A model generated the notes under the pieces. That model ran no database searches and was not told the origin of the DNA. It was given only the letters and a program-made list of their open reading frames with translations. This document shows, piece after piece, positions 5,491-20,055 of a DNA stretch of 64,000 bases (position 1 is the first letter of the stretch; every line of letters begins with the position of its first letter). Location: NCBI RefSeq assembly GCF_016735115.1, contig NZ_JAERQJ010000001.1:558001-622000 (forward strand). Reading direction: 5' to 3'. Source of the DNA: Aquimarina mytili. Lineage in GTDB: Bacteria > Bacteroidota > Bacteroidia > Flavobacteriales > Flavobacteriaceae. Both the position numbers and the translations under genes were made by a program.

Positions 5491-5532
5491 CGTCTTTTTT
5501 TATCCAATATACGTCATGAATATGTTTTTATG
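5491..5532 (+). promoter_or_regulatory. AraC-type direct-repeat operator of the siderophore operon
   Basis: Two half-sites start with CGTC at 5491 and 5512, exactly 21 bp apart. The first 27 bp (5491-5517) match the region 14960-14986 in front of the TonB receptor gene at 24 positions, including a shared CGTCTTTTTTTATCCA and a shared CGTCAT. AraC-family activators bind such two-turn direct repeats. The second half-site ends 6 bp before the -7 element, as expected for an activator that contacts RNA polymerase. Confidence 0.7.
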
Positions 5533-5538
5533 TCGATC

Positions 5539-5546
5539 TACATTTG
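5539..5546 (+). promoter_or_regulatory. Promoter -7 element of the siderophore operon
   Basis: TACATTTG matches the Bacteroidota consensus TAnnTTTG. No good TTG/TTTG -33 element lies 19-21 bp upstream, which fits activator dependence. The predicted start of transcription is near 5552. Confidence 0.6.
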
Positions 5547-5552
5547 CATAAC

Positions 5553-5576
5553 TTATTTAGATTAAATAAAAATAAT
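5553..5576 (+). promoter_or_regulatory. Fur-like iron box at the siderophore operon start site
   Basis: TTATTTA-GAT-TAAATAA forms a 7-3-7 palindrome at 5553-5569. The whole 24-bp element is shared with 15025-15048 (TTATTTAGA, two variable bases, AAATA, one variable base, AAATAAT). It covers the predicted transcription start and abuts the ATG at 5577, a repressor position. The assignment to Fur is inference from sequence and gene content. Confidence 0.55.
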
Positions 5577-7082
5577 ATGCTCCTCAATGCACAAACCAAC
5601 GTAGTTATTGATCATAAAATTGATCAGTTATTTGATTCGCAATCAAAATATACCTACGAAGAATATATACAAAAGGCAGTACAATATGTTAAATCCTTTC
5701 TGGATAGAGATAGCTTTTATAGTGGAGAGTTCATAAGCGATTTTGATTCAAAACGGCATTTCATTACTCCCGATCCCAATGTTAATTTAACCATTGACGA
5801 GGCTTTACAGGAAATAAAAGCACTATATCTCGATCACACTATAGCGTTTCATCACCCCAATTATGTAGCACATCTCAATTGTCCAGTTTTGTTACCTGCC
5901 ATAGTTGGGGACTTAGTCGCATCATCTATAAATACAGCAATCGAAACCTGGGATCAGAGTACTTCTGCTACTTTAATAGAGCAGGAGATGATTAAATGGA
6001 TCTGTACCCAAATGAGATTACCGCGTATCTCAGATGGAGTATTTACTTGTGGAGGAACACAATCTAATTTTATGGCTTTGTTATTAGCTAGGGATGATTA
6101 TGCTTTCAAACATTATGGACTTAACCTTAAAGAAAATGGTTGGTCTGATGTGGTTTCCAAATTTCGCTTCTTTTGTTCAGAAAAAGCACATTTTAGTATT
6201 AAGAAAAATGCTGCTCTAATGGGTATGGGATACAATGCAGTTATTCCAGTGGAAACAGATGATAAGATGAAAATGAAATCCGATGCTTTAATACAAGCAA
6301 TCGAGAAAGAAAAGCAATCAGGTAACATTCCTATCGGTATTATTGCCACCGCCGGAACTACTGATTTTGGAAGCTTTGATCCATTAGAAACCATTGCTCA
6401 AATCGCCAAAGAATATCAGATATGGTTTCATGTTGACGGAGCGTACGGGGGAAGTTACATATTGACAGATACACATCAGCATCTGTTAAACGGAATAGAA
6501 AGAGCAGACTCGGTAACTATTGATTTTCATAAAACCATGTTTCAGCCTGTTTGTTCTAGTGCATTTTTGGTACGCGATACAGAACACTTTAAATACGTGT
6601 CGTATTATGCTGATTATCTTAATCCTTTAGAACATAGGGATGCAGAGTGCCCTAATCTAATCGAAAAATCAATTCAGACTACCCGTAGATTTGATGCACT
6701 AAAGCTTTGGTTTACATTAAAAATGACAGGAGCTAAAACGATAGGTTCTTTTTTAGAAAAAGTACATTACCTGGCTTTAGATTTATACCATAGTATAAAA
6801 GATGATCCTTATTTTGAGATTGTTCATAAACCTGAGCTCAGCACCTTAGTCTTCAGATATATTGATTTAGAGACAGATTCTAATCCTATTCATGATAAAA
6901 TTAACCTGTATATAAAGAACACACTTTTTAAATCGGGTCAGGCATCTATTGCAAGTACAAAAATTGACGGAAAAATATACCTGAAATTTACATTACTTAA
7001 TCCAAAAAGTACCATTGATGATTTGTTAAATATTATCCAGATGATCAAGAATACAGGAAGAGAATACAATCCTCATAATTAA
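5577..7082 (+). CDS. PLP-dependent decarboxylase (group II; DesA/RhbB-like) for siderophore diamine
   Basis: It decarboxylates a basic amino acid (lysine, ornithine or 2,4-diaminobutyrate) to the diamine backbone of a hydroxamate siderophore. The group II pyridoxal-phosphate fold shows as HVDGAYGG (residues 285-292, PLP-binding Asp) and the Schiff-base lysine K319 in DFHKTMFQP. At 501 residues the length is normal for this family. I choose ATG 5577; the frame extends to a TTG at 5544, but that TTG is part of the promoter -7 element. It is the first gene of an operon of seven tightly spaced genes up to 13972. Substrate cannot be told from sequence; lysine to cadaverine (desferrioxamine or bisucaberin-like route) is my preferred guess because there is a single NIS synthetase. 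Confidence 0.88.
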   Translation: MLLNAQTNVVIDHKIDQLFDSQSKYTYEEYIQKAVQYVKSFLDRDSFYSGEFISDFDSKRHFITPDPNVNLTIDEALQEIKALYLDHTIAFHHPNYVAHLNCPVLLPAIVGDLVASSINTAIETWDQSTSATLIEQEMIKWICTQMRLPRISDGVFTCGGTQSNFMALLLARDDYAFKHYGLNLKENGWSDVVSKFRFFCSEKAHFSIKKNAALMGMGYNAVIPVETDDKMKMKSDALIQAIEKEKQSGNIPIGIIATAGTTDFGSFDPLETIAQIAKEYQIWFHVDGAYGGSYILTDTHQHLLNGIERADSVTIDFHKTMFQPVCSSAFLVRDTEHFKYVSYYADYLNPLEHRDAECPNLIEKSIQTTRRFDALKLWFTLKMTGAKTIGSFLEKVHYLALDLYHSIKDDPYFEIVHKPELSTLVFRYIDLETDSNPIHDKINLYIKNTLFKSGQASIASTKIDGKIYLKFTLLNPKSTIDDLLNIIQMIKNTGREYNPHN

Positions 7083-7095
7083 AACAAATACAATA

Positions 7096-8424
7096 ATGGA
7101 GAAAGAAAATATACTTGATTTTGTGGCTATTGGAATTGGTCCAATGAATCTTGGATTAGCTTGCTTAACCGAATCTATAGCCGAATTAGATGGCGTTTTT
7201 TTAGATAAGAAAGAAAAGTTTGATTGGCATCCTGGGATGATGCTTCAGGATACAACACTCCAGATCCCTTTTATGGCAGATTTGGTAACACTGGCAGATC
7301 CAACAAATCCATATAGTTTTCTAAATTATATCAAAGAACAAGGGCGCATTTATTCATTTTATATTAGAGAAAACTTCTTAGTATTACGTAATGAATATAA
7401 TCAATATTGTCATTGGGCAATTCAGAAATTATCAAATGTTTACTTTCAGACAGAGGTTACCGATATCGATTACAATAAGGAAGAAAGGTACTTTACAGTT
7501 ATTTCAAATAACACTACAACTGGAGAACAAAAAGTATATCAAACTCGTAAACTGGTTTTAGGTACCGGAACTCAACCTTATATTCCTAAGTGCTGTAAGG
7601 ATTTGAGAGGAAAAGCTATTCATTCTTCAGCCTATCTTTCGCATAAAGAACAACTACAGTCTAAAAAATCAATTACCATTTTAGGTAGTGGGCAAAGTGC
7701 GGCTGAAATTTTCTATGATCTTTTGCAAGATATTGATATAAAGGGATACGAACTCAATTGGATTACAAGATCACCTAGATTCTTCCCTTTAGAATATTCT
7801 AAACTCACTTTAGAAATGACCTCCCCTGACTATGTAGATTATTTCTATGACTTGCCTTCTACTAAAAGAGATGATCTAATCAAGAACCAAAAACATTTGT
7901 ATAAGGGAATTAATCAAGATTTGATTGCCAATATTTATGATTTGATCTATACTAAACAATTAACTCATAAAGTTAAGATCGACCTTAGAACGAATTCAGA
8001 ATTAAAGAAGGCTGATTATGATGCTACTTTAGAAAAATTCTATCTCGAAATACATCAAAACGAGCAGAATAAATATTACCAACATCAGACAGAAGGATTG
8101 GTGTTAGCAACCGGTTATGGGTATCAACAACCCAAATGTATTGAGGGAATTAAAGATTGTATTCGATGGGATGAAAAAGGAAGATATAATGTGCATCGTA
8201 ATTATGCCATTGATCATAAAGGCAGAGATATTTTTGTACAAAATGCAGAGCTACATACACATGGATTCGTTACACCAGATCTGGGAATGGCATGCTATCG
8301 AAATTCATATATCATCAAGGAGCTTACAGGAACAGATTACTACCCAATCGAAAAACGAATCGCTTTTCAGCAATTTGAAGTCACAAAGGAAGAAGAGATT
8401 AAGAAGGAAGCATCATTAGTATGA
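7096..8424 (+). CDS. Lysine/ornithine N-monooxygenase (SidA/IucD/PvdA family)
   Basis: It is an FAD- and NADPH-dependent flavoenzyme that N-hydroxylates the diamine or amino acid to form the hydroxamate nitrogen. The FAD motif GIGPMNLG is at residues 13-20, the NADPH motif is GSGQSAAE near residue 200, and the family ATGY motif is seen as LVLATGYGYQQP near residue 340. The 442-residue length is typical. It begins 13 bp after the decarboxylase gene and overlaps the next gene by 4 bp (ATGA), which indicates translational coupling. Confidence 0.93.
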   Translation: MEKENILDFVAIGIGPMNLGLACLTESIAELDGVFLDKKEKFDWHPGMMLQDTTLQIPFMADLVTLADPTNPYSFLNYIKEQGRIYSFYIRENFLVLRNEYNQYCHWAIQKLSNVYFQTEVTDIDYNKEERYFTVISNNTTTGEQKVYQTRKLVLGTGTQPYIPKCCKDLRGKAIHSSAYLSHKEQLQSKKSITILGSGQSAAEIFYDLLQDIDIKGYELNWITRSPRFFPLEYSKLTLEMTSPDYVDYFYDLPSTKRDDLIKNQKHLYKGINQDLIANIYDLIYTKQLTHKVKIDLRTNSELKKADYDATLEKFYLEIHQNEQNKYYQHQTEGLVLATGYGYQQPKCIEGIKDCIRWDEKGRYNVHRNYAIDHKGRDIFVQNAELHTHGFVTPDLGMACYRNSYIIKELTGTDYYPIEKRIAFQQFEVTKEEEIKKEASLV

Positions 8425-9590
8425 AAAAATTTCTGATCATAATGACCTTGGTTGCTGTGGTAAGTGATTATTTACTACATCCTTTTTACCCACAGTTCTT
8501 TGAGGCTCGTTTTGGTGTTACCGACCCAGAATGGGTAGGGTATTATTTTGCGGCTATTTGTTTTATGGTGATGATTGCTTTTCCGTTTTGGGCTTGTGTT
8601 TCTAAAAAAGTGGCAGAACTTAATATTTTGGTGTATACACAATTCATTGCCGGGCTATTAGCATTATACTGCTATTGGACTACGTCTTATATCAATTTTT
8701 GGATAGTATCGCTTATTATGATTTTGTTTAAGGGAAGTTACTTGTTGGTCTATCCATACATTCTAAGAATCATTACCAAAAAAGAACATCCAGATACTAT
8801 AGGATTATTATCTGTAGTCGTTCATTTGGGTGGAATTCTAGGAGCTGTCATTGGTGGGTTTACGGTCGATTTAATTGATGCTAGTTATATTTTTTTGATT
8901 ATGGCGGCAGGTGATTTTATACAAATGGGAATGAGTGCTTATTTATTGAAAAGCAAGAGGTATGACACTTCAAGAACCAAAGAAACCGAAGAGAAAATAG
9001 TTACTAATAAAAAAATGATTCCTAAAGGATTCATCTTCAAAATAGGAATTACAACACTACTATTATATGCAAGCGGATTTATTATCCGACCATTTTTTTC
9101 AACCTATTGGGAGTATATAACGGCCAATTCTAGTAAACTAATTTCTGGGGCGGTATATGCATTACCGGGCTTTGTAGCATTGCTTGTGCTATGGTGGGAT
9201 ATAAAAAGAAAAGGAACAAAATCCAGTGGCATAGTAATTCCTTTATGTATTGGTATCATTGGTTTGTTAGCACAGGGTATTCCAATTCCTTTTTTAGTTA
9301 TTCTGGGTAGAATCGTATATGGATGGGCCGTTTTTAGAGCCATTGTTCGTTTTGATGTATTGTTGTTTGAATCCAGTACTCCTGAGACCTATGCAATAGA
9401 CTATAGTAAAGTACATTTTTTCCAAAATCTAGGAGTGTTAATATCTTCCTTTTTAGTGGGTGTTCTTGTAGATCAATATGGATTAGTAATTCCTTTTACA
9501 ATGGCATGCATTGGTTTTACTGTGACTTTAGGCTTATACGTTTTGCTTTTCAAAATAAATTTCAAAAAAATCATAGTAAAGACAACCTAA
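8421..9590 (+). CDS. MFS transporter, probable siderophore exporter
   Basis: This 389-residue hydrophobic protein has about twelve membrane segments and a basic central loop (about residues 185-205), the layout of the major facilitator superfamily. It overlaps the hydroxylase gene by 4 bp and is followed after 4 bp by the acyltransferase gene. MFS proteins in NIS siderophore operons usually export the finished siderophore, although import of the ferric form (as for RhtX) is also known. I favour export because the uptake genes 15091-20055 form a separate unit with its own inner-membrane protein. Confidence 0.85.
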   Translation: MKKFLIIMTLVAVVSDYLLHPFYPQFFEARFGVTDPEWVGYYFAAICFMVMIAFPFWACVSKKVAELNILVYTQFIAGLLALYCYWTTSYINFWIVSLIMILFKGSYLLVYPYILRIITKKEHPDTIGLLSVVVHLGGILGAVIGGFTVDLIDASYIFLIMAAGDFIQMGMSAYLLKSKRYDTSRTKETEEKIVTNKKMIPKGFIFKIGITTLLLYASGFIIRPFFSTYWEYITANSSKLISGAVYALPGFVALLVLWWDIKRKGTKSSGIVIPLCIGIIGLLAQGIPIPFLVILGRIVYGWAVFRAIVRFDVLLFESSTPETYAIDYSKVHFFQNLGVLISSFLVGVLVDQYGLVIPFTMACIGFTVTLGLYVLLFKINFKKIIVKTT

Positions 9591-9594
9591 AATT

Positions 9595-10185
9595 ATGGAT
9601 ACAATAACTAAAATAGACATACTATTTTCTAAGTATTGTGAAGGCCTTGGAGAGCTACAAATACGTGATTTTAATTGTAAGGAAGATTCAGAGAAAATAC
9701 ATCATTGGGTGACCAAGCCTTATGCAAAATATTGGGGAATGCAAGAGTCTTCGATTACAGAGTTCGAAGAGGAATATCGAAAAATTGTAGACAGTAAACA
9801 TCATCATGTAGGTATTGGGATGTTACATGGTAAACCTATTTTTTTAATGGAATATTATGATCCGCATAAAGATACTATTGCTGATCATTATGATGTCCTT
9901 TCTGGAGATGTAGGCATGCATATTTTAGTGGCTCCTGTAGAAAAAAAGATTTCAAAATTTACCTGGAATGTATTTACCACTGTTATGGATTTCCTGTTTG
10001 CTGATCCAGCAATAAAAAGGATTGTGGTAGAACCTAATGTTGCGAATCAAAAGATTCATGTTCTCAATGCTAAAGCCGGTTTTCGGTACTTCAAAGAAGT
10101 TCAATTACCTCATAAAAGAGCACGTTTAGCAATATGCACGCGTAAAGATTATAAAAGTGCAATTCAAAAATCATATGTAAAATAA
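9595..10185 (+). CDS. GNAT N-acyltransferase (IucB/DesC-like)
   Basis: At 196 residues, it matches the siderophore acetyltransferase family that transfers an acyl group (acetyl, succinyl or similar) from CoA to the N-hydroxylated amine. The visible family features are the HHWVTKPYAKYWGM block near residue 40, GMLHGKPIFLMEYYDP at about 80-95 and the HVLNAKAGFRYFKEV block near residue 152. It lies between the exporter and the NIS synthetase, 8 bp before the latter, so it belongs to the operon. The acyl donor is unknown. Confidence 0.88.
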   Translation: MDTITKIDILFSKYCEGLGELQIRDFNCKEDSEKIHHWVTKPYAKYWGMQESSITEFEEEYRKIVDSKHHHVGIGMLHGKPIFLMEYYDPHKDTIADHYDVLSGDVGMHILVAPVEKKISKFTWNVFTTVMDFLFADPAIKRIVVEPNVANQKIHVLNAKAGFRYFKEVQLPHKRARLAICTRKDYKSAIQKSYVK

Positions 10186-10193
10186 TATAACCA

Positions 10194-12044
10194 ATGAACA
10201 CCTCAGACACTTTGTTATTATCAACTCAAATCTCACACTTAACTCCAAGAATTTGGGAGATAGTGAATAGAAACTTAATTAGAAAAGCAATTAGCGAATT
10301 TACTCATGAACTACTTTTAGAACTTGAATTCATAGGGCAAAAAGAGGATTGGAAAATCTATAAAATGTATACAGATATTCCTGATATTGTCTATTATTTC
10401 AATGTAAAAAAAAGAGTATTAGATCATTCACATATTGATCGTTCTTCTATTATAAAAATGAAGAATGATAAAGAAGTAGAACTAGACGCTCTTGATTTTA
10501 TCTTAGAATTAAAAAATACACTTGGGATTCCTGATGATATGTTACCTACCTATATGGAAGAAATCACCAGTACCTTGCATGGTGCAGCTTATAAATATAA
10601 GTATCAAGAATATAATGCCAGTGAGTTAATAGCGGCCGATTTTCAAGATATAGAAAAAGCAATGACCGAAGGACATCCTTGCTTTGTTGCTAATAATGGC
10701 AGGATTGGATTTAATACATCCCAGTATCATCATTTCGCACCAGAAACAGAAACCTCCTTTGCTTTAGTTTGGATAGCAGGACACAAAACAAAAGCCGATT
10801 ATCATAGTGTATCGATGCATGCTTATGATGTTTTGATAGAGAATGAACTGGGAAAAGAAACCGTGCAACTTTTTAACCAAAAATTGATGGATCTTGATCT
10901 TGATCCTGAAGATTATATTTTTATGCCTGTTCATCCTTGGCAATGGGATACTAAAATCAGTACTATTTTTGCTCAAGATATTGCACAACAATTTATCGTT
11001 TTATTAGGAAAAGGAAATGATCAATATGCTGCGCAGCAATCTATTCGTACACTGTTTAATATTACTCACCCAGAGAAGCTATATACCAAAACTGCACTCT
11101 CGATACTTAATATGGGCTTTATGAGAGGATTATCTCCCTATTATATGGGAAGTACTCCTGTGATTACAGACTGGATATCCCAATTATTAGAACATGATAC
11201 TCTTATACGACAGACAGGATTTACCATGTTGGGAGAAATCGCAACAGTTGGTTATAGAAATCGATATTATGAAACCTTGGGTAAAACCAAAGCCCATAAC
11301 AAGATGCTATCTGCACTTTGGAGAGAAAGTCCTTTTTCTAAGGTCACCAAAGACCAAAAGTTAATGACGATGGCGGCGTTTTTACATTTGGATAATCAAG
11401 GAAATTCATTGGTGGTCGAATTAATAAAAGCTTCCTCGGTATCTGTTGAGGTTTGGTTAGAAAACTATCTGCGTGTATATCTAACACCGCTTTTACATTG
11501 TTTATTTCAATATGACTTAGTGTTTATGCCTCATGGCGAAAATTTGATCATGGTTATTGAAAATAGCATTCCCGTAAAAGCGATCATGAAAGATATCACC
11601 GAAGAGATTGCCATTTTTGATGAAACAATAACATTACCTGAAAAAGCAAAACGATTACATGTTAAAGCAGATGATGATATTAAAGCCTTGGCCATCTTTA
11701 CAGATGTTTTTGATTGTTTTTTTAGATTCCTTTCAGATATTTTGGTAACACAAGGTGATTATTCTGAAACCACATTTTGGAAACAAGTAGCACAATGCGT
11801 TATCAACTACCAAGAATCACATTCGGAACTTTCAGATAAATTTCAACGAATTGATCTTTTTGCACCAGAATTTAAAAGATGTTGCCTTAATCGGTTACAA
11901 TTATTGAATACGAAACATATGCTCAACCTGGCAGATCCAGTAGACAGTTTACAATTTAAAGGAACTATAAAAAACCCTATTGCTACCTACAAAACTGATA
12001 CAAAAAACACAAAAACCAATACATCATATGCAACGGCAAAATAG
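10194..12044 (+). CDS. NIS siderophore synthetase, IucA/IucC family
   Basis: This ATP-dependent synthetase joins carboxylates to amines or hydroxylamines to assemble the siderophore. The family is clear from HGAAYKYKY near 127, EGHPCFVANNGRIGF near 160, PVHPWQW near 245, the RTL..KTALSILNMG block near 285-305 and PHGENLIMVIE near 445. It has 616 residues, usual for type C enzymes plus the C-terminal FhuF-like part. It is the only synthetase in the operon, which points to an iterative enzyme that oligomerises or cyclises one kind of hydroxamate unit (DesD, AlcC or bisucaberin type) rather than a citrate-based two-synthetase pathway. Its end overlaps the next gene by 17 bp. Confidence 0.93.
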   Translation: MNTSDTLLLSTQISHLTPRIWEIVNRNLIRKAISEFTHELLLELEFIGQKEDWKIYKMYTDIPDIVYYFNVKKRVLDHSHIDRSSIIKMKNDKEVELDALDFILELKNTLGIPDDMLPTYMEEITSTLHGAAYKYKYQEYNASELIAADFQDIEKAMTEGHPCFVANNGRIGFNTSQYHHFAPETETSFALVWIAGHKTKADYHSVSMHAYDVLIENELGKETVQLFNQKLMDLDLDPEDYIFMPVHPWQWDTKISTIFAQDIAQQFIVLLGKGNDQYAAQQSIRTLFNITHPEKLYTKTALSILNMGFMRGLSPYYMGSTPVITDWISQLLEHDTLIRQTGFTMLGEIATVGYRNRYYETLGKTKAHNKMLSALWRESPFSKVTKDQKLMTMAAFLHLDNQGNSLVVELIKASSVSVEVWLENYLRVYLTPLLHCLFQYDLVFMPHGENLIMVIENSIPVKAIMKDITEEIAIFDETITLPEKAKRLHVKADDDIKALAIFTDVFDCFFRFLSDILVTQGDYSETTFWKQVAQCVINYQESHSELSDKFQRIDLFAPEFKRCCLNRLQLLNTKHMLNLADPVDSLQFKGTIKNPIATYKTDTKNTKTNTSYATAK

Positions 12045-13140
12045 AATATTAGCTATAGACTTGGCAAGAGGAGTAAGTGTATTGATGGTAATCATTGTTC
12101 ATACCTTATGGATCTATGGAGATATATTTACGCAATCTGAAACCTGGTTAGGCGAAGCGATTCATTTTATCGGTAAAGGAACTCCAATGTTCTTAATAGC
12201 AATGGGAGTATCATTTACATTATCTCGTAATCAAAGTATTATTCTATCTATAAAAAGAGCATTCTACATTTTAGGTGTAGGGTATCTTATGAACTTCCTG
12301 AAGTTTGTACTCCCGGTCCTTTTGGGTACTGTTCCAGATAATTTTATAGCAGCCTATGGTTGGACAAAACCAGTAACCTTGGATAACATGATCTATATGT
12401 TAGGGACTGGTGATGTTTTACAATTAGCTGGAGTTTCTCTATTGTTTATGGGAATTATCAATCATTTTTCAAAAAATAAATATGTACCATTATTAATAGC
12501 ATTACTCATTGCTGTTGTGACCAAAGAGGTGCATGGTTTCCGCTTTGGGATTATAGGTATAGACTATGTGTTAGATCTTTTATGGGGAGCCAAGTGGAAT
12601 GTATATTTTGCAGTATTTCCTTGGTTCTCGTTTATCCTTATCGGAATGTTTTTTGGAAAATGGTATAAAGAAAAAAAGAATAGTACGCAGTACCTTTTTA
12701 ATAAAATGGGAGTTGCAGGAGTAATTCTAATGCTTATTGGAGGAGGGTTGTGTTACTATAATTTTGAGTACCATTTTGGAGACTACTTTCACTTAGGCCC
12801 AGGAGGAACATTATACCTGGCTGGATTTAATCTTGTACTGATGTGGTTAGCCAATGTATTAGTTACTCGAGTTAAGGAAAATAACATTTTTAAATTCTTT
12901 TATTATTGTAGCAAACGTGTAACGACAATCTATGTGATCCAATGGGTACTTATCTGCTGGGGGATGGGAGTTTTGGGGTACCAGCAATTTGGTATTACCG
13001 GTGTACTATTATTAATCCCATTTTACATTCTTTTAACGCTGGGAGTACAAAAATTTGTGTTGGATGTCGTATCGACTACAAATAAATCTAAAAAACAAAC
13101 ACGTATAGCTAAAAAACAAGTGGTTATACCAAAAACATAA
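12028..13140 (+). CDS. Polytopic membrane acyltransferase-like protein (DUF1624/HGSNAT type)
   Basis: This hydrophobic protein has about ten membrane segments and begins with RILAIDLARGVSVLMVIIVH. That block is the hallmark of heparan-alpha-glucosaminide N-acetyltransferase-like and related acyltransferase proteins; the first membrane histidine (VH) is present. I start it at ATG 12028 (370 residues), because the upstream ATG at 11980 lies well inside the NIS synthetase gene. It is coupled to the synthetase gene by a 17-bp overlap and lies 4 bp before the RpfF-like gene. It is not part of the core siderophore set. I infer an acyl transfer to the siderophore or a membrane step in its export, without direct evidence. 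Confidence 0.7.
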   Translation: MQRQNRILAIDLARGVSVLMVIIVHTLWIYGDIFTQSETWLGEAIHFIGKGTPMFLIAMGVSFTLSRNQSIILSIKRAFYILGVGYLMNFLKFVLPVLLGTVPDNFIAAYGWTKPVTLDNMIYMLGTGDVLQLAGVSLLFMGIINHFSKNKYVPLLIALLIAVVTKEVHGFRFGIIGIDYVLDLLWGAKWNVYFAVFPWFSFILIGMFFGKWYKEKKNSTQYLFNKMGVAGVILMLIGGGLCYYNFEYHFGDYFHLGPGGTLYLAGFNLVLMWLANVLVTRVKENNIFKFFYYCSKRVTTIYVIQWVLICWGMGVLGYQQFGITGVLLLIPFYILLTLGVQKFVLDVVSTTNKSKKQTRIAKKQVVIPKT

Positions 13141-13144
13141 TGTT

Positions 13145-13972
13145 ATGAGGGAGTTTGATTGCGTTTCTATAGCATATTTTAGAGAAGAAGAACTCTTGCT
13201 TTGGAAAATAAAAGATACCGGAATGCCTAACTTTTGTTTACAAGGCCTTCAGGAGTTTCGAGAATTTTGTGACTGGGTTAATGCCTATTTTTCGCACCCT
13301 GACAGGCCTTTAAAATTTATTGTTTCTGGATCAGAACATCAGGGTATCTATAATATGGGAGGAGATTTACCCTTTTTTCTTAATTGTATTCATACGAACG
13401 ATAAGGAAAAACTACTCACCTATGCTCACCTGTGTATTGATGCAATCTATAATATTTATACTTCTTTTGGTTTGCCAGCAATTACAATTGCTCTAGTAGA
13501 AGGAAATGCTTACGGAGGTGGGTTTGAATGTGCATTAGCTCACGATTTTATTATTGCCGAAGAACAGGCACAATTTTGTCTGCCCGAGAATAAATTCAAC
13601 TTGTTTCCAGGTATGGGGGCTCATAGCTTGTTAATCAGAAAAATTGATATAGTAGAAGCAGATAGATTGATTCGAAGCAGTAGAACATATAAAGCAAGGT
13701 TTTTACAATCGTTGGGGCTAGTAGAAAAAGTAACTGAAAAAGGAAAACCTATGCAAGGGTTGAATGATTTTGTGGACAAAATTTCAGAACAATTCAATTT
13801 TGAATATCATCATATTCAATGCAAAAAATTGGTCAATCCTTTACTGAAAAAAGAGTTATTAGCGATTACAAATCTTTGGGTAAAAGCTTGTATGAAAGTT
13901 GGATCATTTGACCTAAGAAAAATGGAGATTTTAGCCAAAGCGCAATTAAGAAAAGTAAGTGCTATATCTTAA
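13145..13972 (+). CDS. Crotonase-family protein resembling RpfF (DSF synthase)
   Basis: The 275-residue sequence has the enoyl-CoA hydratase fold with RpfF-specific blocks: YNMGGDLPFFL at 69-79, then NAYGGGFECAL at 121-131, then LPENKFNLFPGMGAHSLL at 146-163. RpfF of Xanthomonas uses two glutamates 20 residues apart (E141 and E161) to dehydrate 3-hydroxyacyl-ACP and release a cis-2-unsaturated fatty acid. Here E128 and E148 occupy the same places with the same spacing. It is the last gene of the siderophore operon, 4 bp after the membrane protein gene. Its TAA shares the bases TTAA with the stop of the convergent regulator. No RpfC/RpfG-like sensor is in the window. The product is unknown; an unsaturated acyl chain for the siderophore or a diffusible signal are both possible. 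Confidence 0.8.
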   Translation: MREFDCVSIAYFREEELLLWKIKDTGMPNFCLQGLQEFREFCDWVNAYFSHPDRPLKFIVSGSEHQGIYNMGGDLPFFLNCIHTNDKEKLLTYAHLCIDAIYNIYTSFGLPAITIALVEGNAYGGGFECALAHDFIIAEEQAQFCLPENKFNLFPGMGAHSLLIRKIDIVEADRLIRSSRTYKARFLQSLGLVEKVTEKGKPMQGLNDFVDKISEQFNFEYHHIQCKKLVNPLLKKELLAITNLWVKACMKVGSFDLRKMEILAKAQLRKVSAIS

Positions 13973-14976
13973 GGTCGTGTACTATTTCTATATGTTTTGG
14001 GAGTAATACCTTCTATTTTTTTGAATGCTGCCGTAAAATGAGTAGAATTTTTATACCCTACCATTTCTGAAATCTCATAGATTGGTTTTTTACTATGATG
14101 TAATAATTGTTTAGCCTTATTCATTCGAAGTTCTGTGGCATACTCAAATATGGTTTTGCCAAATAGACACTTAAATTCTTTTTTCAATACAAAATCATTT
14201 ACCCCTATCTGTCGGGATAGTTGTTGTATCGAATGTTGAACAGAAAGATCAGACGCAATTAAGTGTTGCGTCTGATATAATTTTTTGACTAAATTATCTA
14301 CAGGGGTTATTATAGTCGGTTTTGGTTTGGATGAGTTTTCTAATTTTAAAGCAATCAATTCAAGTGTTTTTGATTCTAGAAACAAGCGTTTTAGCAACCC
14401 CTTTCGTTCGTCGGTTAAAATTTCGGAAAGTATATCTTGAGTTTTTGGGCATAGAGGTTTAAAAAAATTATTCTGCAATTTTATCAAAGAATATTTATCC
14501 AAAATAGTATACTCTTCGTCAAGCCGATGTCTTTTTATAAAATCAACACTCATTCTAATTTTGACTTCTTTAAGCCGTTTGCGCTTGTGGTAAGCCACAG
14601 AACCTCGGATTTTTGATAGATATAAAAGGTAACTCTCCTGACTTTCATAAATAAGATCATGTGTAATGCCTTCTATTTTGATAATTTGCTCCCCTTCAAT
14701 AAGAAAAGAAAGTTCAAGAAAGTCTTTAGAAAGATACCCTTCCATGAAAAGGTCTTTCTTTAAAACTACATCGAATATGCTTAACTGCAGCCCGTCAAAA
14801 CGATGATATTCAAAAAAACCTATACCAAATTTATCTAGAAATCTAAACCTCTTTGATAGAATACCACATTGTTTATGCGTCTTTATTAGCTCTGAAATTG
14901 AATATAAAGTATCGATCTTCTTTTTGTTATGTAATTTGGTTTTAAGTGACGTTTTTTCACGTCTTTTTTTATCCAT
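13969..14976 (-). CDS. AraC-family regulator of the siderophore locus
   Basis: The protein has 335 residues, with a C-terminal AraC DNA-binding domain (about 230-335: DFVLKKEFKCLFG, MNKAKQLLHHS, ISEMVGYKNSTHFTAAFKK) and an N-terminal part of about 220 residues like the PchR/YbtA/RhrA type regulators that sense a ferric siderophore. It sits between the biosynthesis operon and the receptor gene and is divergent from the receptor. Its start codon (14974-14976) lies inside the direct-repeat element 14960-15001. That repeat is also found in front of 5577, so I infer that it activates both units and controls its own expression. Confidence 0.85.
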   Translation of the reverse strand: MDKKRREKTSLKTKLHNKKKIDTLYSISELIKTHKQCGILSKRFRFLDKFGIGFFEYHRFDGLQLSIFDVVLKKDLFMEGYLSKDFLELSFLIEGEQIIKIEGITHDLIYESQESYLLYLSKIRGSVAYHKRKRLKEVKIRMSVDFIKRHRLDEEYTILDKYSLIKLQNNFFKPLCPKTQDILSEILTDERKGLLKRLFLESKTLELIALKLENSSKPKPTIITPVDNLVKKLYQTQHLIASDLSVQHSIQQLSRQIGVNDFVLKKEFKCLFGKTIFEYATELRMNKAKQLLHHSKKPIYEISEMVGYKNSTHFTAAFKKIEGITPKTYRNSTRP

Positions 14977-15001
14977 AATGCGTCATTTTTATCCTTTTCT
15001 A
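14960..15001 (+). promoter_or_regulatory. AraC-type direct-repeat operator of the receptor gene
   Basis: Half-sites start at 14960 (CGTCTTTTTTTATCCA) and 14981 (CGTCATTTTTATCC), 21 bp apart and almost identical to each other. The pair matches 5491-5532 and ends 5 bp before the -7 element. It overlaps the first codons of the divergent AraC gene, which suggests autoregulation. Confidence 0.7.
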
Positions 15002-15006
15002 GACAC

Positions 15007-15014
15007 TAATTTTG
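15007..15014 (+). promoter_or_regulatory. Promoter -7 element of the receptor operon
   Basis: TAATTTTG matches TAnnTTTG. The distance from the second CGTC half-site to this element is 26 bp, against 27 bp at the siderophore promoter. Confidence 0.6.
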
Positions 15015-15024
15015 CACTTTAAAT

Positions 15025-15048
15025 TTATTTAGACCAAATATAAATAAT
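15025..15048 (+). promoter_or_regulatory. Fur-like iron box of the receptor operon
   Basis: It is the second copy of the 24-bp element seen at 5553-5576, differing only at the two bases after TTATTTAGA and at one base before AAATAAT. It has TTATTTA and TAAATAA arms, 9 bp apart. It lies just downstream of the predicted transcription start. Confidence 0.55.
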
Positions 15049-15090: not shown

Positions 15091-17487
15091 GTGGTTATTT
15101 TAAAACAAAAATGCAGCATCATTTTTTTGCTTTTTGCTGCCTTATGGTGCAATGCGCAAGAACTCGTTCAAGGAGTGGTTTTAGATCAAAATACTAATCC
15201 AGTTCCAGGAGCAACCATTCAGGTCCTTGGTCAAAAGGATATAGGTGTGGTTAGTAATCTTGAAGGAAAATTTCAAATTTTACTCCCTGCAGGCAGTCAT
15301 ACTTTAGAAACCAGTTTTGTGGGTTTTAAAACCAATCGTACTTCGATTACTACAATTGCTTCAGAAACTAGGTACGTAACTATCGTAATTAAAGAAAATA
15401 TTGAAGAATTAACAGATGTACTTATCAAAGGGAAGACAGAGGCAAAAAAGACCCGTGAAAAACCTTTTGAGGTAGACGTAATTGAAACCAAGGAGCTTAA
15501 AAATATAAGTGTAGATATAAATGCTGTGCTAACAACAATTCCCGGAGTAAATGTTCGACAACAAGGAGGATTGGGTGCTACTTTTGACTTTTCGTTAAAT
15601 GGATTATCTGGTAAACAGGTAAAGTTTTTTATTGATGGTATTCCTTTAGAAAATTATGGAAGCTCACTTTCTCTTAACAATTTTCCAGCAACACTCATAG
15701 AAAGGGCCGAAGTCTACAAAGGTGTTGTTCCTATTTTTCTGGGAGCAGATGCTTTGGGTGGGGCAATCAACATTATTACTAATCAGCGTAAAAACGATTT
15801 TCTGGAAGTTTCCTATGATATTGGTTCTTTCAATACACATCGTGCCACTGTAAATGGCCAATACTATAGTGAGAGTGGACTGGCTTTCCAAGTATCATCT
15901 TACTACAATTATTCAGATAATGATTATACCATAAATGGTGTAGATTCTGATGTAGATGGCTTCGTTGTGCGCGATGAATTGGGTAATCCCACTGGGGAAA
16001 TCGTAGAAGAAGTCAAACGGTTTCATGACGCCTACACCTCTCAAATGATACATATAAAAGCTGGTGTAGTTAATAAAGCATTTACAGATCGTTTGATGTT
16101 TGGATTTATAGCCTCGACCAATGAAAATGAAATCCAGCATCCTATCGATCCACAAAATCCTTTTGGTGAGGTTTTTACAGAAAACAATGTCGTTTCGGGG
16201 AGCATTAATTTTGAAAAAGAGAACCTACTCAAAAACAGATTGAAGCTAAATATCTATGCTTCTATAGCCCAAAACCGAGATCAGGTTGTTGATACATCAG
16301 CTCGAAGATATAATTGGTTTGGTGGTTTTACCGAAAGGATAGATCAAACTTTAGGCGAATTTGAAGCCAATAAAACCCTTTTCAAATTCAAAGATAATTT
16401 GCATTTGGTCAATGCTTTGGCAACTTATACTATTGATGAATCGCAGACTATACTTTTTAATTATGCTAAGAATTATATCAAAAGAACAGGAGAGGATCCT
16501 GCTCGATCTGGTAGAATAGCTTTTCAGGATCCTCATGTGGTAAGTAAAAATCTAATAGGATTGTCGTATGATGTTGAATTGCTGGACTCTAAATGGAATA
16601 CTTCATTATTTTCAAAAGGATATATACTGGATTCTGAAGGTACTATTGAAGACCTTTTTACTACTGTAGAAGAAGATCGATTTACTCCCTTTAAAAATTC
16701 TATTGAAGAATTAGGATATGGTTTTGCTTCGACGTATAAGGTTTTAGAAAGCCTTCAAATAAAAGGATCATTTGAAAGAACATTTAGAATCCCTGAAGGA
16801 TTTGAACTTTTTGGCGATGGTTTTTTACTAAAATCAAATCCAGAGTTATTACCCGAAGAGAGTTATAATGCGAATCTAGGAATTCTTTTCAACACACAAC
16901 TTAATAATTTCAAAATTCGAGCAGATACAAACGTGTTTTTGCGAGAATCCGAAAATTTTATTGCCATTAGATCCGAAGGGATTTTCTCAAGATTCTATAA
17001 CACAGCAGATGCACGTAGTAGCGGAATTGAAGGAGAGATCAGAACACTGTATAATGACAGATTCTTTTTAGATCTTAATGCTACGTATCAAAATATTATA
17101 GATCGTAATGCAGGAGAAAATGCAGGAGTTGACTTTCTAGAGAATCAACGTATCGCAAATATTCCGTATCTATTCGGAAATGCCAGTTTTGGAGGAAGAT
17201 TTAATAATATTCTAAAGACAGGAGATCAATTCAATGTTTCATGGAGTACCTACTATGTTCATGATTACCCACTTACTTCCTTCGTAGAAGGAAGCCCAGA
17301 AGAGCGAGACATTATCCCTGAACAAGTTTCGCACAATCTACAATTAGGATACTCTTTTGATAAAGGAAAATATAATGTTTCAGTATTAGCTCGTAACATC
17401 ACTAATGCCAGGATTTATGACAATTTCGAGATTCAGCAACCGGGAAGAGCTTTTTATGTTAAGCTGAGGTATTTTTTAACAAACTAA
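15091..17487 (+). CDS. TonB-dependent siderophore receptor (XusA-like)
   Basis: This outer-membrane receptor imports the ferric siderophore. It has a signal peptide (to about residue 23, CNAQ), then a carboxypeptidase-regulatory-like beta-sandwich domain (about 25-110, QGVVLDQNTNPVPGATI). The plug domain (about 115-235, TIPGVNVRQQGG and ADALGGAINIIT) follows, and then the 22-strand barrel ending in an aromatic-rich strand (FYVKLRYFLTN). There are 798 residues. The start is GTG at 15091; an in-frame stop TAG lies at 15085-15087, and no ATG is in frame nearby. The promoter carries the same AraC and iron elements as the biosynthesis operon, which ties this receptor to the siderophore made next door. 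Confidence 0.92.
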   Translation: MVILKQKCSIIFLLFAALWCNAQELVQGVVLDQNTNPVPGATIQVLGQKDIGVVSNLEGKFQILLPAGSHTLETSFVGFKTNRTSITTIASETRYVTIVIKENIEELTDVLIKGKTEAKKTREKPFEVDVIETKELKNISVDINAVLTTIPGVNVRQQGGLGATFDFSLNGLSGKQVKFFIDGIPLENYGSSLSLNNFPATLIERAEVYKGVVPIFLGADALGGAINIITNQRKNDFLEVSYDIGSFNTHRATVNGQYYSESGLAFQVSSYYNYSDNDYTINGVDSDVDGFVVRDELGNPTGEIVEEVKRFHDAYTSQMIHIKAGVVNKAFTDRLMFGFIASTNENEIQHPIDPQNPFGEVFTENNVVSGSINFEKENLLKNRLKLNIYASIAQNRDQVVDTSARRYNWFGGFTERIDQTLGEFEANKTLFKFKDNLHLVNALATYTIDESQTILFNYAKNYIKRTGEDPARSGRIAFQDPHVVSKNLIGLSYDVELLDSKWNTSLFSKGYILDSEGTIEDLFTTVEEDRFTPFKNSIEELGYGFASTYKVLESLQIKGSFERTFRIPEGFELFGDGFLLKSNPELLPEESYNANLGILFNTQLNNFKIRADTNVFLRESENFIAIRSEGIFSRFYNTADARSSGIEGEIRTLYNDRFFLDLNATYQNIIDRNAGENAGVDFLENQRIANIPYLFGNASFGGRFNNILKTGDQFNVSWSTYYVHDYPLTSFVEGSPEERDIIPEQVSHNLQLGYSFDKGKYNVSVLARNITNARIYDNFEIQQPGRAFYVKLRYFLTN

Positions 17488-17521: not shown

Positions 17522-18817
17522 ATGAAAACAATACAAATAACTAAAAACATAATGTTGCTTATAGTAATGACTATAGTTGCATTTTCTTGTAGTAGCGATG
17601 ATAATGGAGGGACTATTGTACCTGAGCCGACTGCTATATCTAAATATGTAGTAGGGTTTGAAGCATTCCCGGTTGGGCAAGCGGCACCTGTTGATTATAT
17701 TTTAGAACTTCCTTCTTTAGAGTCACTAACTATTGGAGAAATTTCTGTTGAAGGACAAGGAAAACCTTTAAAAGGATGGAGATTTTTTCATAGTGCAGGA
17801 AATACTGTCTTTACGGCGGGTTATGCCGATGATGATAAATGTATATCCTATCAATTAGACGAAAATGGAGTATTGAAAGAGAAAACCAATTTCGAGTTTC
17901 AATCTACCTTGGATAATTATGCAGCCATTGATGACAACACTTTAATAGCTGTAGAGTTGAGTGCATCAGTTACCGATCCAGCAGCAACATCAATTCCAGA
18001 CCGTAGTTTCTATATTATCAATGCAGAAACGGGGTTAGTAGAAAAAATAGAAACGCATCCTGTAGATAGTAGTCTTGGAGATGGAACAGCCAGTAATCTA
18101 CCCTATATGCCTTGGGTTACAGGAATGACGTTAAGAGACGGAAAACTATTCGTGTCTTATCATAAATTATTACCTGATGGTACTTTTACCAATGTTGGAG
18201 CAGATAAAGCCAATGTAGCCGTTTTTAAGTATCCTGAATTTGAATTGGAAAAAATAATCGAAGACACCCGTACTAGCCCAATAGGTGTAAACGGTCATAG
18301 TACAGGAATAGAACAAACCGAAAATGGAGATATCTATTCGTTTTCTCCCTCGGCGTTGAGTGCCGGTTTTACAACAGCGGTTAAACCATCTGGAATTTTA
18401 AGAATTAAAAGCGGAGCAACAGAATTTGACCCTGATTATTTTTTCAATATTGAAGAGGCTGCCAACGGAGGGAAATTATTCTGGATGGATTATGTGGGTA
18501 ACGGAAAAGCCATTGCCAGAATTATTATAGATGATACCAACGGAGCAGGAGAGTGGGGAGCCTTCTTTAAAAAAGATGTGTTCAAATTGGTAGTGATAGA
18601 TCTCAATACTAAAACAGTAACCGATGTTTCAGGAGTTCCTGTACATGGACATCGGTATACGGCGCCTATGTTTGTAGAAAATGGTAAGGCATATATTAGT
18701 TGTTCTACCGATACCGAAACACATATTTATATAGTAGATTCAGAAACAGCTACAGCAACCAAAGGAGCCAAAGTTCTTGGCTTAGGGCTAAAAGGAATTT
18801 TCAAGGTAACTAACTAA
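17522..18817 (+). CDS. DUF4374-type lipoprotein (XusB-like siderophore-binding protein)
   Basis: It is 431 residues with a lipoprotein signal peptide (IVAFSC, Cys about residue 23, followed by SSDDNGG, a pattern compatible with surface export of lipoproteins). The body looks like a beta-propeller: repeated strands with blocks such as YMPWVTGMTLRDGKLFVSYH and HGHRYTAPMFVENGKAYISC. To my knowledge proteins of this type (DUF4374) partner a TonB receptor and a PepSY protein in the Bacteroides XusABC siderophore-uptake system, where XusB is a surface lipoprotein that binds the siderophore. It follows the receptor gene by 34 bp. Confidence 0.8.
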   Translation: MKTIQITKNIMLLIVMTIVAFSCSSDDNGGTIVPEPTAISKYVVGFEAFPVGQAAPVDYILELPSLESLTIGEISVEGQGKPLKGWRFFHSAGNTVFTAGYADDDKCISYQLDENGVLKEKTNFEFQSTLDNYAAIDDNTLIAVELSASVTDPAATSIPDRSFYIINAETGLVEKIETHPVDSSLGDGTASNLPYMPWVTGMTLRDGKLFVSYHKLLPDGTFTNVGADKANVAVFKYPEFELEKIIEDTRTSPIGVNGHSTGIEQTENGDIYSFSPSALSAGFTTAVKPSGILRIKSGATEFDPDYFFNIEEAANGGKLFWMDYVGNGKAIARIIIDDTNGAGEWGAFFKKDVFKLVVIDLNTKTVTDVSGVPVHGHRYTAPMFVENGKAYISCSTDTETHIYIVDSETATATKGAKVLGLGLKGIFKVTN

Positions 18818-18897: not shown

Positions 18898-20055
18898 ATG
18901 AAGAAGAAAAATACTCGAAAAATCATATTAAAAATCCATAAAATATTGGGTTTAACAACGGGCTTAGTGGTTTTTGTAGTGTCTATTACTGGATGTCTTT
19001 GGGTTTTTAAAGAAGAAATTGAAAACTTTTATGATGGGTATAAATATGTAACTCCACTGGATCAAGAGTTCTTATCTGCATCCAAAATAAAAACGATTGC
19101 CGAAGAAGTTATTCCTAATAGAAGTATTCATGGAGTTATTTATGGAAAACCCAATGAAGCCATAGAGGTAGTGTTTTATGAAGCATCACCAGAAATATTT
19201 TATCATAGTGTTTTTTTAAATCCCTATACAGGAGATTTTATCAAAAAAATTGATAATGATGCCGGATTTTTTGGTTTCGTACTAAAAGGGCATTTACGGT
19301 TATGGTTACCCGATGCAGTAGGATCAAGAATTGTTTCGTATTCGGTGTTGTTTTTTTTAATAATCTTGATTAGCGGATTAATCTTATGGTGGCCCCGAAA
19401 TAATAAAAACTGGAAACAACGATTGAAGTTCGATTGGAATTCTAAAACTAGATGGAAACGTAAAAATTTTGATCTCCATACGGTAGTTGGGTTTTATATA
19501 TCCTCTTTTGGATTGATATTAGCATTTACAGGGTGTGTCATGGCGTTTAACTGGTTCTATTTTATTGCTTACAAAGCCACAGGAGGAGATAAAGCACCGC
19601 AATTTATCATTCCAGAAAGTAAAAGTGTAATGATTGTCGAAAAGAATGAAACTCCACCTTATGATAAACTCATTCCAATCCTCTACAAAACCTATAAAGA
19701 TGCCAAAAACTTCGAATTACACTATCCTGAAAATGATACGACATCAGTTCTTGTAGAGGTAAGCAATTCTAAAGGACTATATTACAATATGGATTATCTT
19801 TTCTTTGATCAAAACACCCTAGAAGAAATTGAAACCACAAGTATTTATGGAAAATATAAAGATGCCAAGTTTGCCGATAAAGTGATTAGAATGAATTACG
19901 ATATTCATATAGGAGTTATAGGAGGAATTGCAGGGAAAATTATTGCTTTTTTAATAAGTTTAATTTGTGCCTCATTACCAGTAAGCGGTATTTTACTTTG
20001 GTATGGTAGAAAGTATAAAAAAACTAACAAAGCAAAGTTTACATATGTAAATTAG
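18898..20055 (+). CDS. PepSY-domain inner-membrane protein (XusC-like)
   Basis: This 385-residue protein has four membrane segments (about 15-35, 145-165, 195-215, 345-365) and PepSY-associated regions between them. The family (PF03929-like) occurs beside siderophore receptors and includes proteins proposed to reduce or handle ferric siderophores at the inner membrane, such as XusC and FoxB-like proteins. HGVIYGKP and GHLRLWLPDAVGSRIVSYSVLFF are recognisable family blocks. It closes the receptor unit and is separated from the lipoprotein gene by a hairpin. Confidence 0.85.
   Translation: MKKKNTRKIILKIHKILGLTTGLVVFVVSITGCLWVFKEEIENFYDGYKYVTPLDQEFLSASKIKTIAEEVIPNRSIHGVIYGKPNEAIEVVFYEASPEIFYHSVFLNPYTGDFIKKIDNDAGFFGFVLKGHLRLWLPDAVGSRIVSYSVLFFLIILISGLILWWPRNNKNWKQRLKFDWNSKTRWKRKNFDLHTVVGFYISSFGLILAFTGCVMAFNWFYFIAYKATGGDKAPQFIIPESKSVMIVEKNETPPYDKLIPILYKTYKDAKNFELHYPENDTTSVLVEVSNSKGLYYNMDYLFFDQNTLEEIETTSIYGKYKDAKFADKVIRMNYDIHIGVIGGIAGKIIAFLISLICASLPVSGILLWYGRKYKKTNKAKFTYVN

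Follow-up and report, generated by a model that had tools for sequence, protein, structure and literature searches.

The enzymes closest to the crotonase described here are the DSF synthases RpfF of Xanthomonas (3m6m), DfsA/BCAM0581 of Burkholderia (5fus) and RpfF of Cronobacter (6dgn), which share 28 to 33% identity with it. RpfF converts 3-hydroxyacyl-ACP, iso-branched chains included, to cis-2-enoyl chains by dehydration and thioester cleavage (PMC4542539). The closest biosynthetic clusters are those for bisucaberin B in Tenacibaculum mesophilum (bsb) and the tbs cluster of T. maritimum, in which a decarboxylase, an N-monooxygenase, an MFS exporter, CD1, C2 and D2 are encoded in this order. 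As published, these clusters have six genes and no crotonase is named; the sequenced 11.6 kb probably stops before the crotonase position. Rhizobactin 1021 and acinetoferrin are likewise NIS siderophores with a 2-enoyl chain; both are citrate based and their chains are trans. The compounds nearest to the product type predicted below, a hydroxamate with a cis-2-enoyl iso-fatty acyl chain and a cadaverine-succinate backbone, are tenacibactins K to M, which are known as compounds only; the source paper assigned no genes, and for Aquimarina none are known. Tenacibactin K is an acyl-desferrioxamine with a cis-2-isopentadecenoyl chain (J 11.4 Hz by NMR) on N-hydroxycadaverine (PMC8767563).

The window, that is, the whole 64,000-nucleotide stretch of Aquimarina mytili DNA that was analyzed, contains the features listed in Table 1.

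Table 1. Features of the siderophore locus in the window
Feature	Position	Strand	Evidence
CGTC-N17-CGTC direct repeat with 21-bp period, candidate site for AraC activation of the biosynthesis operon	5491..5515	+	Spacing shared by about 50 promoters of related loci
TAnnTTTG, presumed Bacteroidota-type -7 element	5539..5546	+	Motif match
Palindrome TTATTTAGATTAAATAA, candidate iron-responsive operator	5553..5569	+	Three copies genome-wide (5.0 Mb) with one mismatch allowed, two of them within the cluster
PLP-dependent decarboxylase (lysine to cadaverine)	5577..7082	+	PF00282; RhbB/DABA-decarboxylase model, 416 bits; 48% to Pantoea desferrioxamine-type operon
Diamine N-monooxygenase	7096..8424	+	PF13434, 429 bits; 58% to Pantoea desferrioxamine-type monooxygenase
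MFS exporter (BsbE-like)	8421..9590	+	PF07690; position as bsbE (PMC6164419)
GNAT acyltransferase (C enzyme, outside C1 clade)	9595..10185	+	PF13523, 160 bits; GNAT tree
NIS synthetase (D enzyme, D2 type)	10194..12044	+	PF04183/PF06276; 59% to T. aiptasiae D2
HGSNAT-type membrane acyltransferase	12028..13140	+	PF07786, 73 bits; PF01757; start inferred from alignment
RpfF-like crotonase, candidate cis-2-enoyl-forming dehydratase for acyl tail	13145..13972	+	Profiles, alignment, tree, fold
AraC-family regulator (siderophore regulator type)	13969..14976	-	PF12833; adjoins RpfF position, conserved
Second promoter copy before receptor: CGTC pair 14960/14981, -7 element at 15007, palindrome 15025-15041	14960..15041	+	Motif search
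TonB-dependent receptor	15091..17487	+	PF07715/PF13715
DUF4374 protein of uptake operon	17522..18817	+	PF14298
PepSY ferric-reductase-type membrane protein, uptake part	18898..20055	+	Conserved synteny; named by sequence look, not family search

The set of A to D enzymes is complete in the window, with a lysine decarboxylase, a diamine N-monooxygenase, a GNAT acyltransferase and a type C NIS synthetase. The operon has the desferrioxamine/bisucaberin gene set plus the HGSNAT-type membrane acyltransferase, and the CD1 of the bsb and tbs order has been lost. The decarboxylase probably starts at the ATG at 5577, downstream of the operator, rather than at the TTG at 5544. The first enzymes were 48, 58 and 50% identical to those of the decarboxylase-monooxygenase-GNAT/NIS operon of Pantoea vagans, compared with 36, 37 and 31% for the rhizobactin 1021 region of pSymA. 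Because the operon is closer to the Pantoea desferrioxamine-type operon than to rhizobactin, the siderophore backbone is expected to be a cadaverine-succinate hydroxamate, not a citrate. These identities confirm the NIS siderophore operon recognized in the initial annotation and assign it to the desferrioxamine/bisucaberin type, not to the citrate type. The annotation had cited rhizobactin 1021 and acinetoferrin as precedents, which fit less well than cis-2-enoyl tenacibactin K because of their citrate core and trans bond. No crotonase was detectable on reading the pSymA rhizobactin region, and with the distance of the enzymes (31 to 37%) the rhizobactin-type analogy was dropped.

The crotonase gene starts with ATG, encodes 275 amino acids and is the seventh and last gene of the siderophore operon. 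It is separated by 4 bp from the stop codon of the upstream HGSNAT-type gene, which ends at 13140, and its own stop codon shares 4 bases with the convergent AraC gene, in agreement with the terminal position and the 4-bp spacing described earlier. E128 of the protein lies within GGGFECAL and E148 within LPENKFNLFPGMG. Both residues align without gaps and at a constant offset with E141 and E161 of Xanthomonas RpfF (3m6m), and they align equally without gaps with the glutamates of two Burkholderia/Cronobacter synthases. Both are invariant across 15 aligned relatives, indicating that the catalytic pair claimed in the initial annotation was correctly identified. The GGDL and LFPGMG blocks are also shared with the DSF synthases, which have a Leu where crotonases of the window type have an invariant Tyr (AYGGGFE). 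The protein scored 267.8 bits with NCBIfam NF006452 (cut-off 177), which among 395 Bacteroidota genomes was passed by the window genome alone, and 159 bits with the RpfF equivalog model NF053515, below its cut-off of 550; the only Pfam label was ECH_1. By its profile scores, the crotonase is classed as a relative of RpfF and not as the NF053515 equivalog. The dN/dS ratio in pairs of intact rpfF-like copies was 0.03 to 0.21, indicating that the gene is under purifying selection.

A tree of 47 rows was built, which included ordinary enoyl-CoA hydratases of the window genome and of other Bacteroidota. The siderophore-linked crotonases formed one clade (100/100) nested in the RpfF family, and this family was split from the ordinary enoyl-CoA hydratases at 100/100; the reading as an ordinary enoyl-CoA hydratase was rejected on this tree. 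Their sister relation to Burkholderia was weak (84/74). By sequence, the best matches among solved structures were DSF synthases, those of Xanthomonas and of Burkholderia/Cronobacter. The structure predicted for the protein (pLDDT 83.8) matched five DSF synthase entries at Z 31 to 33, among them 5fus at 33.3 and 3m6n at 32.5, and the next structure, which is not an RpfF, at 26.0. In the model, the RpfF fold is present with its C-terminal helices. Tree and fold thus agree on the kinship with RpfF proposed in the initial annotation, and the outcome that the annotation had named as refuting it, a firm place among ordinary enoyl-CoA hydratases, did not occur.

The crotonase was found at the same position of the siderophore cluster in 33/33 named relatives, which belong to Aquimarina, Tenacibaculum, Flavivirga and two bins with wider labels; the proposed gene order thus recurs across flavobacterial genomes. 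The upstream gene in the relatives is the HGSNAT-type gene; in Tenacibaculum and one Aquimarina, genes for a hydrolase and a fatty acid hydroxylase are inserted ahead of the crotonase gene instead. The AraC gene follows in nearly all 33. In p-values that take no account of shared ancestry, RpfF was associated with NIS clusters both in Aquimarina (66 genomes; 34/45 NIS-positive versus 0/21 NIS-negative; Fisher P = 1.4e-9) and in Tenacibaculum (79 genomes; 5/13 versus 0/66; P = 6e-5). A draw of 397 Flavobacteriaceae genomes contained RpfF in 4 of the 7 NIS-positive and 1 of the 390 NIS-negative genomes. About a quarter of the Aquimarina NIS clusters function without an RpfF gene. On the HGSNAT tree, the presence of RpfF took 5 changes versus 14.9 in shuffles, indicating phylogenetic structure. 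The HGSNAT clade follows the presence of RpfF in Aquimarina, with an RpfF-positive clade of 30 that has one exception, the carrier of a gene remnant, and a second clade (n = 9) without RpfF. A strict pairing of HGSNAT and RpfF, which fits Aquimarina, fails in Tenacibaculum and was rejected. Viral contigs scanned with the Tenacibaculum protein gave no match.

The strongest comparative evidence came from one Aquimarina genome (G011) in which the pathway is split over two loci. RpfF, HGSNAT and the C1 domain are missing from its core cluster (L117), which contains genes for the decarboxylase, the N-monooxygenase, the MFS exporter, a D1 synthetase lacking the GNAT domain that it normally has, C2, D2, a nitroreductase, AraC and the receptor. 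A second locus (L116) contains GNAT, fatty acid hydroxylase, HGSNAT, hydrolase and RpfF genes, and in the GNAT tree this GNAT falls in the C1 clade, the domain that is elsewhere fused to D1. Both loci begin with CGTC-N17-CGTC, the TAnnTTTG element and the palindrome TTATTTAGAYYAAATAA. This arrangement suggests that RpfF, the C1 acyltransferase and HGSNAT constitute a module for acylation within the siderophore pathway.

In nearly every Aquimarina locus that covers this stretch, the same three-part promoter precedes both the biosynthesis operon and the receptor. The CGTC pair occurs in 0.3% of random 100-mers, and TAnnTTTG conforms to the Bacteroidota-type -7 element. From this anatomy, the direct repeat is a putative binding site of AraC and the palindrome a putative element responding to iron. 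With one mismatch allowed, the palindrome was found just three times in the window's genome, before the operon, before the receptor and before a small Cys-rich ORF by a ferritin gene. The last of these (L165, position ~1510, genome G000, contig C34) lies between the ferritin gene and a thioredoxin/lipoprotein operon, and its location points to an iron regulon.

A known product comes from a strain closely related to a gene carrier. The tenacibactin K producer, Tenacibaculum sp. C16-1, is 99.4% identical in its 16S sequence to T. aiptasiae a4 (PMC8767563), whose NIS cluster (L036) includes the crotonase gene; a further NIS locus of desferrioxamine type was not found in the a4 genome. With the known chemistry of RpfF, gene and compound fit each other, down to the iso branch and the uncommon cis geometry. 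Strain C16-1 also makes cis-4 and saturated congeners, such as the saturated tenacibactin M (PMC8767563), indicating that other enzymes feed the acyl position as well. Together with the acyl-desferrioxamines with unsaturated tails made by T. maritimum (PMC12224167), these congeners indicate that other tail routes exist. The bisucaberin B reported for T. mesophilum is unacylated. The bsb cluster was dropped as a contrast of no crotonase and no tail, since the T. mesophilum screening primers best match RpfF-positive clusters of the T. gallaicum type (forward primer exact, reverse primer with one mismatch) and sequencing probably stopped short of the gene position. For Aquimarina carrying such a cluster, no metabolite was found.

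We propose, with a probability of roughly three in four, that an RpfF-type crotonase has been recruited into desferrioxamine biosynthesis, where it makes a cis-2-enoyl tail; activity and product are inferred from the evidence above. The substrate would be a 3-hydroxyacyl thioester, probably an iso-branched 3-hydroxyacyl-ACP from fatty acid synthesis, which the crotonase would dehydrate to the cis-2-enoyl thioester, perhaps also cleaving the thioester. The chain may be handed on as an ACP or CoA thioester, or as a free acid that is activated again. A GNAT acyltransferase (the C1 domain where present) would then place the chain on the hydroxylamine nitrogen of N-hydroxycadaverine. Since the CD1 protein is absent from the window, the acyl-transferring enzyme there is uncertain and may be the single GNAT or the HGSNAT-type protein. 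An obligatory role of the C1 domain as acyltransferase was rejected because the window and other loci keep RpfF without CD1. The NIS synthetase would join the acylated unit to N-hydroxy-N-succinylcadaverine units, and the end product, an amphiphilic siderophore of tenacibactin K type, would associate with membranes. The AraC regulator and the iron-type operator may switch on the operon together with the receptor. Strong support for the first of two roles offered in the initial annotation, synthesis of an acylated siderophore with an unsaturated tail, comes from the fixed operon position, the co-occurrence, the relocated module with its shared promoter and the matching cis-2-enoyl siderophore.

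The second role, a free cis-2-enoic acid signal produced under iron limitation, would place a DSF system under siderophore control, whether or not the siderophore is affected. Characterized RpfF enzymes hydrolyze the thioester and release the free acid (PMC4542539), and every sequence or fold neighbor of the crotonase with a known product is a DSF synthase. However, no DSF sensor gene was recognized among the annotated neighbors in the 20-kb loci around the copies; RpfFs lie in a sensor neighborhood, and two alphaproteobacterial relatives (L158 and L160), by contrast, adjoin an EAL-domain gene. The gene is almost confined to siderophore clusters, with the G106 genome described below as one exception, and travels with acyltransferase genes, and a cis-2-enoyl siderophore is already known in the group. 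The diffusible fatty-acid signal therefore gained no positive support, and we consider a free signal unlikely. There is also little likelihood, in our estimate, of a dual role, in which the crotonase would supply the siderophore tail and also release cis-2-enoic acid, so that the siderophore would double as a carrier of a DSF-type signal. Release might be direct or might follow later hydrolysis of the siderophore, in Tenacibaculum by the secreted hydrolase of the operon.

The crotonase might instead act mainly as an acyl-ACP thioesterase or form a trans-2-enoyl chain, giving a saturated tail or a trans tail as in rhizobactin 1021 and acinetoferrin. RpfF does cleave saturated acyl-ACPs (PMC4542539), and saturated tenacibactin M comes from the tenacibactin K strain itself; against this, a crotonase is missing from the rhizobactin region, the two dehydratase glutamates do not vary among the relatives and the natural product known in the group has a cis-2 bond, which makes such a function quite improbable. 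That an ordinary enoyl-CoA hydratase of fatty acid breakdown is linked to the operon by chance, as the crotonase fold and the lone ECH_1 label might suggest, is very hard to reconcile with the 100/100 separation from the hydratases of the same genome, the position kept in 33/33 relatives and the NIS association in Aquimarina (P = 1.4e-9, shared ancestry disregarded).

Enzyme family, cluster type and compound class were all known before; no connection between them was found in the literature searched. Our search, which covered mostly papers outside subscription, found no report of RpfF linked to siderophore clusters in Bacteroidota, as the initial annotation had supposed. If siderophore tailoring is the true role, the operon would for the first time give a cis-2-unsaturated acyl siderophore a genetic basis, and we know of no earlier case of a DSF-synthase relative that serves as a biosynthetic tailoring enzyme instead of a signal maker. 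The orphan compound tenacibactin K would gain its genes, and a role would be found for the crotonase gene of most Aquimarina siderophore clusters. RpfF in a desferrioxamine-type cluster could then be a practical marker for an amphiphilic cis-enoyl product. DSF signaling would not follow from RpfF homology alone.

Losses of the gene were also seen. In one genome (G544, L127), the operon is normal except that only a 28-residue C-terminal RpfF remnant stands at the expected place. A frameshift in the rpfF-like gene of Flavivirga (L038:10001-10833) and an early stop in that of another genome (G548, L130) may each be a recent loss or an assembly error. The G538 genome carries an RpfF-like gene in another type of NIS cluster, with a MATE exporter and an AMP-ligase (L115:12083); its GGDL and GNAYGGGF blocks are degraded and both glutamates are kept, which may reflect decay or a new function. 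Inside the siderophore operon of T. aiptasiae lie genes (L036:6337-9973) for a nitroreductase-like protein, a secreted alpha/beta hydrolase and a fatty acid hydroxylase, which could possibly make a hydroxamic acid terminus or release the tail. Two diverged tandem RpfF-like genes in the G106 genome (L110:1343-4597), 33 to 34% identical to the window protein and without an NIS cluster, adjoin a cytochrome P450 gene and a gene for a 2,145-amino-acid ketosynthase protein with two FabA domains (PfaC-like), and may represent another nonsignal use of the RpfF family. A 99.8-kb plasmid of E. coli also has an RpfF-like gene (31.6%), which lies in a lipid-type cluster (L161:4604-8745) whose other products include a GNAT, an ABC transporter and a lipoprotein-sorting protein. 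On a Methylibium plasmid (L162:3153-5705), an RpfF-like gene is flanked by genes for an iron-containing redox enzyme and a ferritin-like protein, again an iron-related neighborhood.
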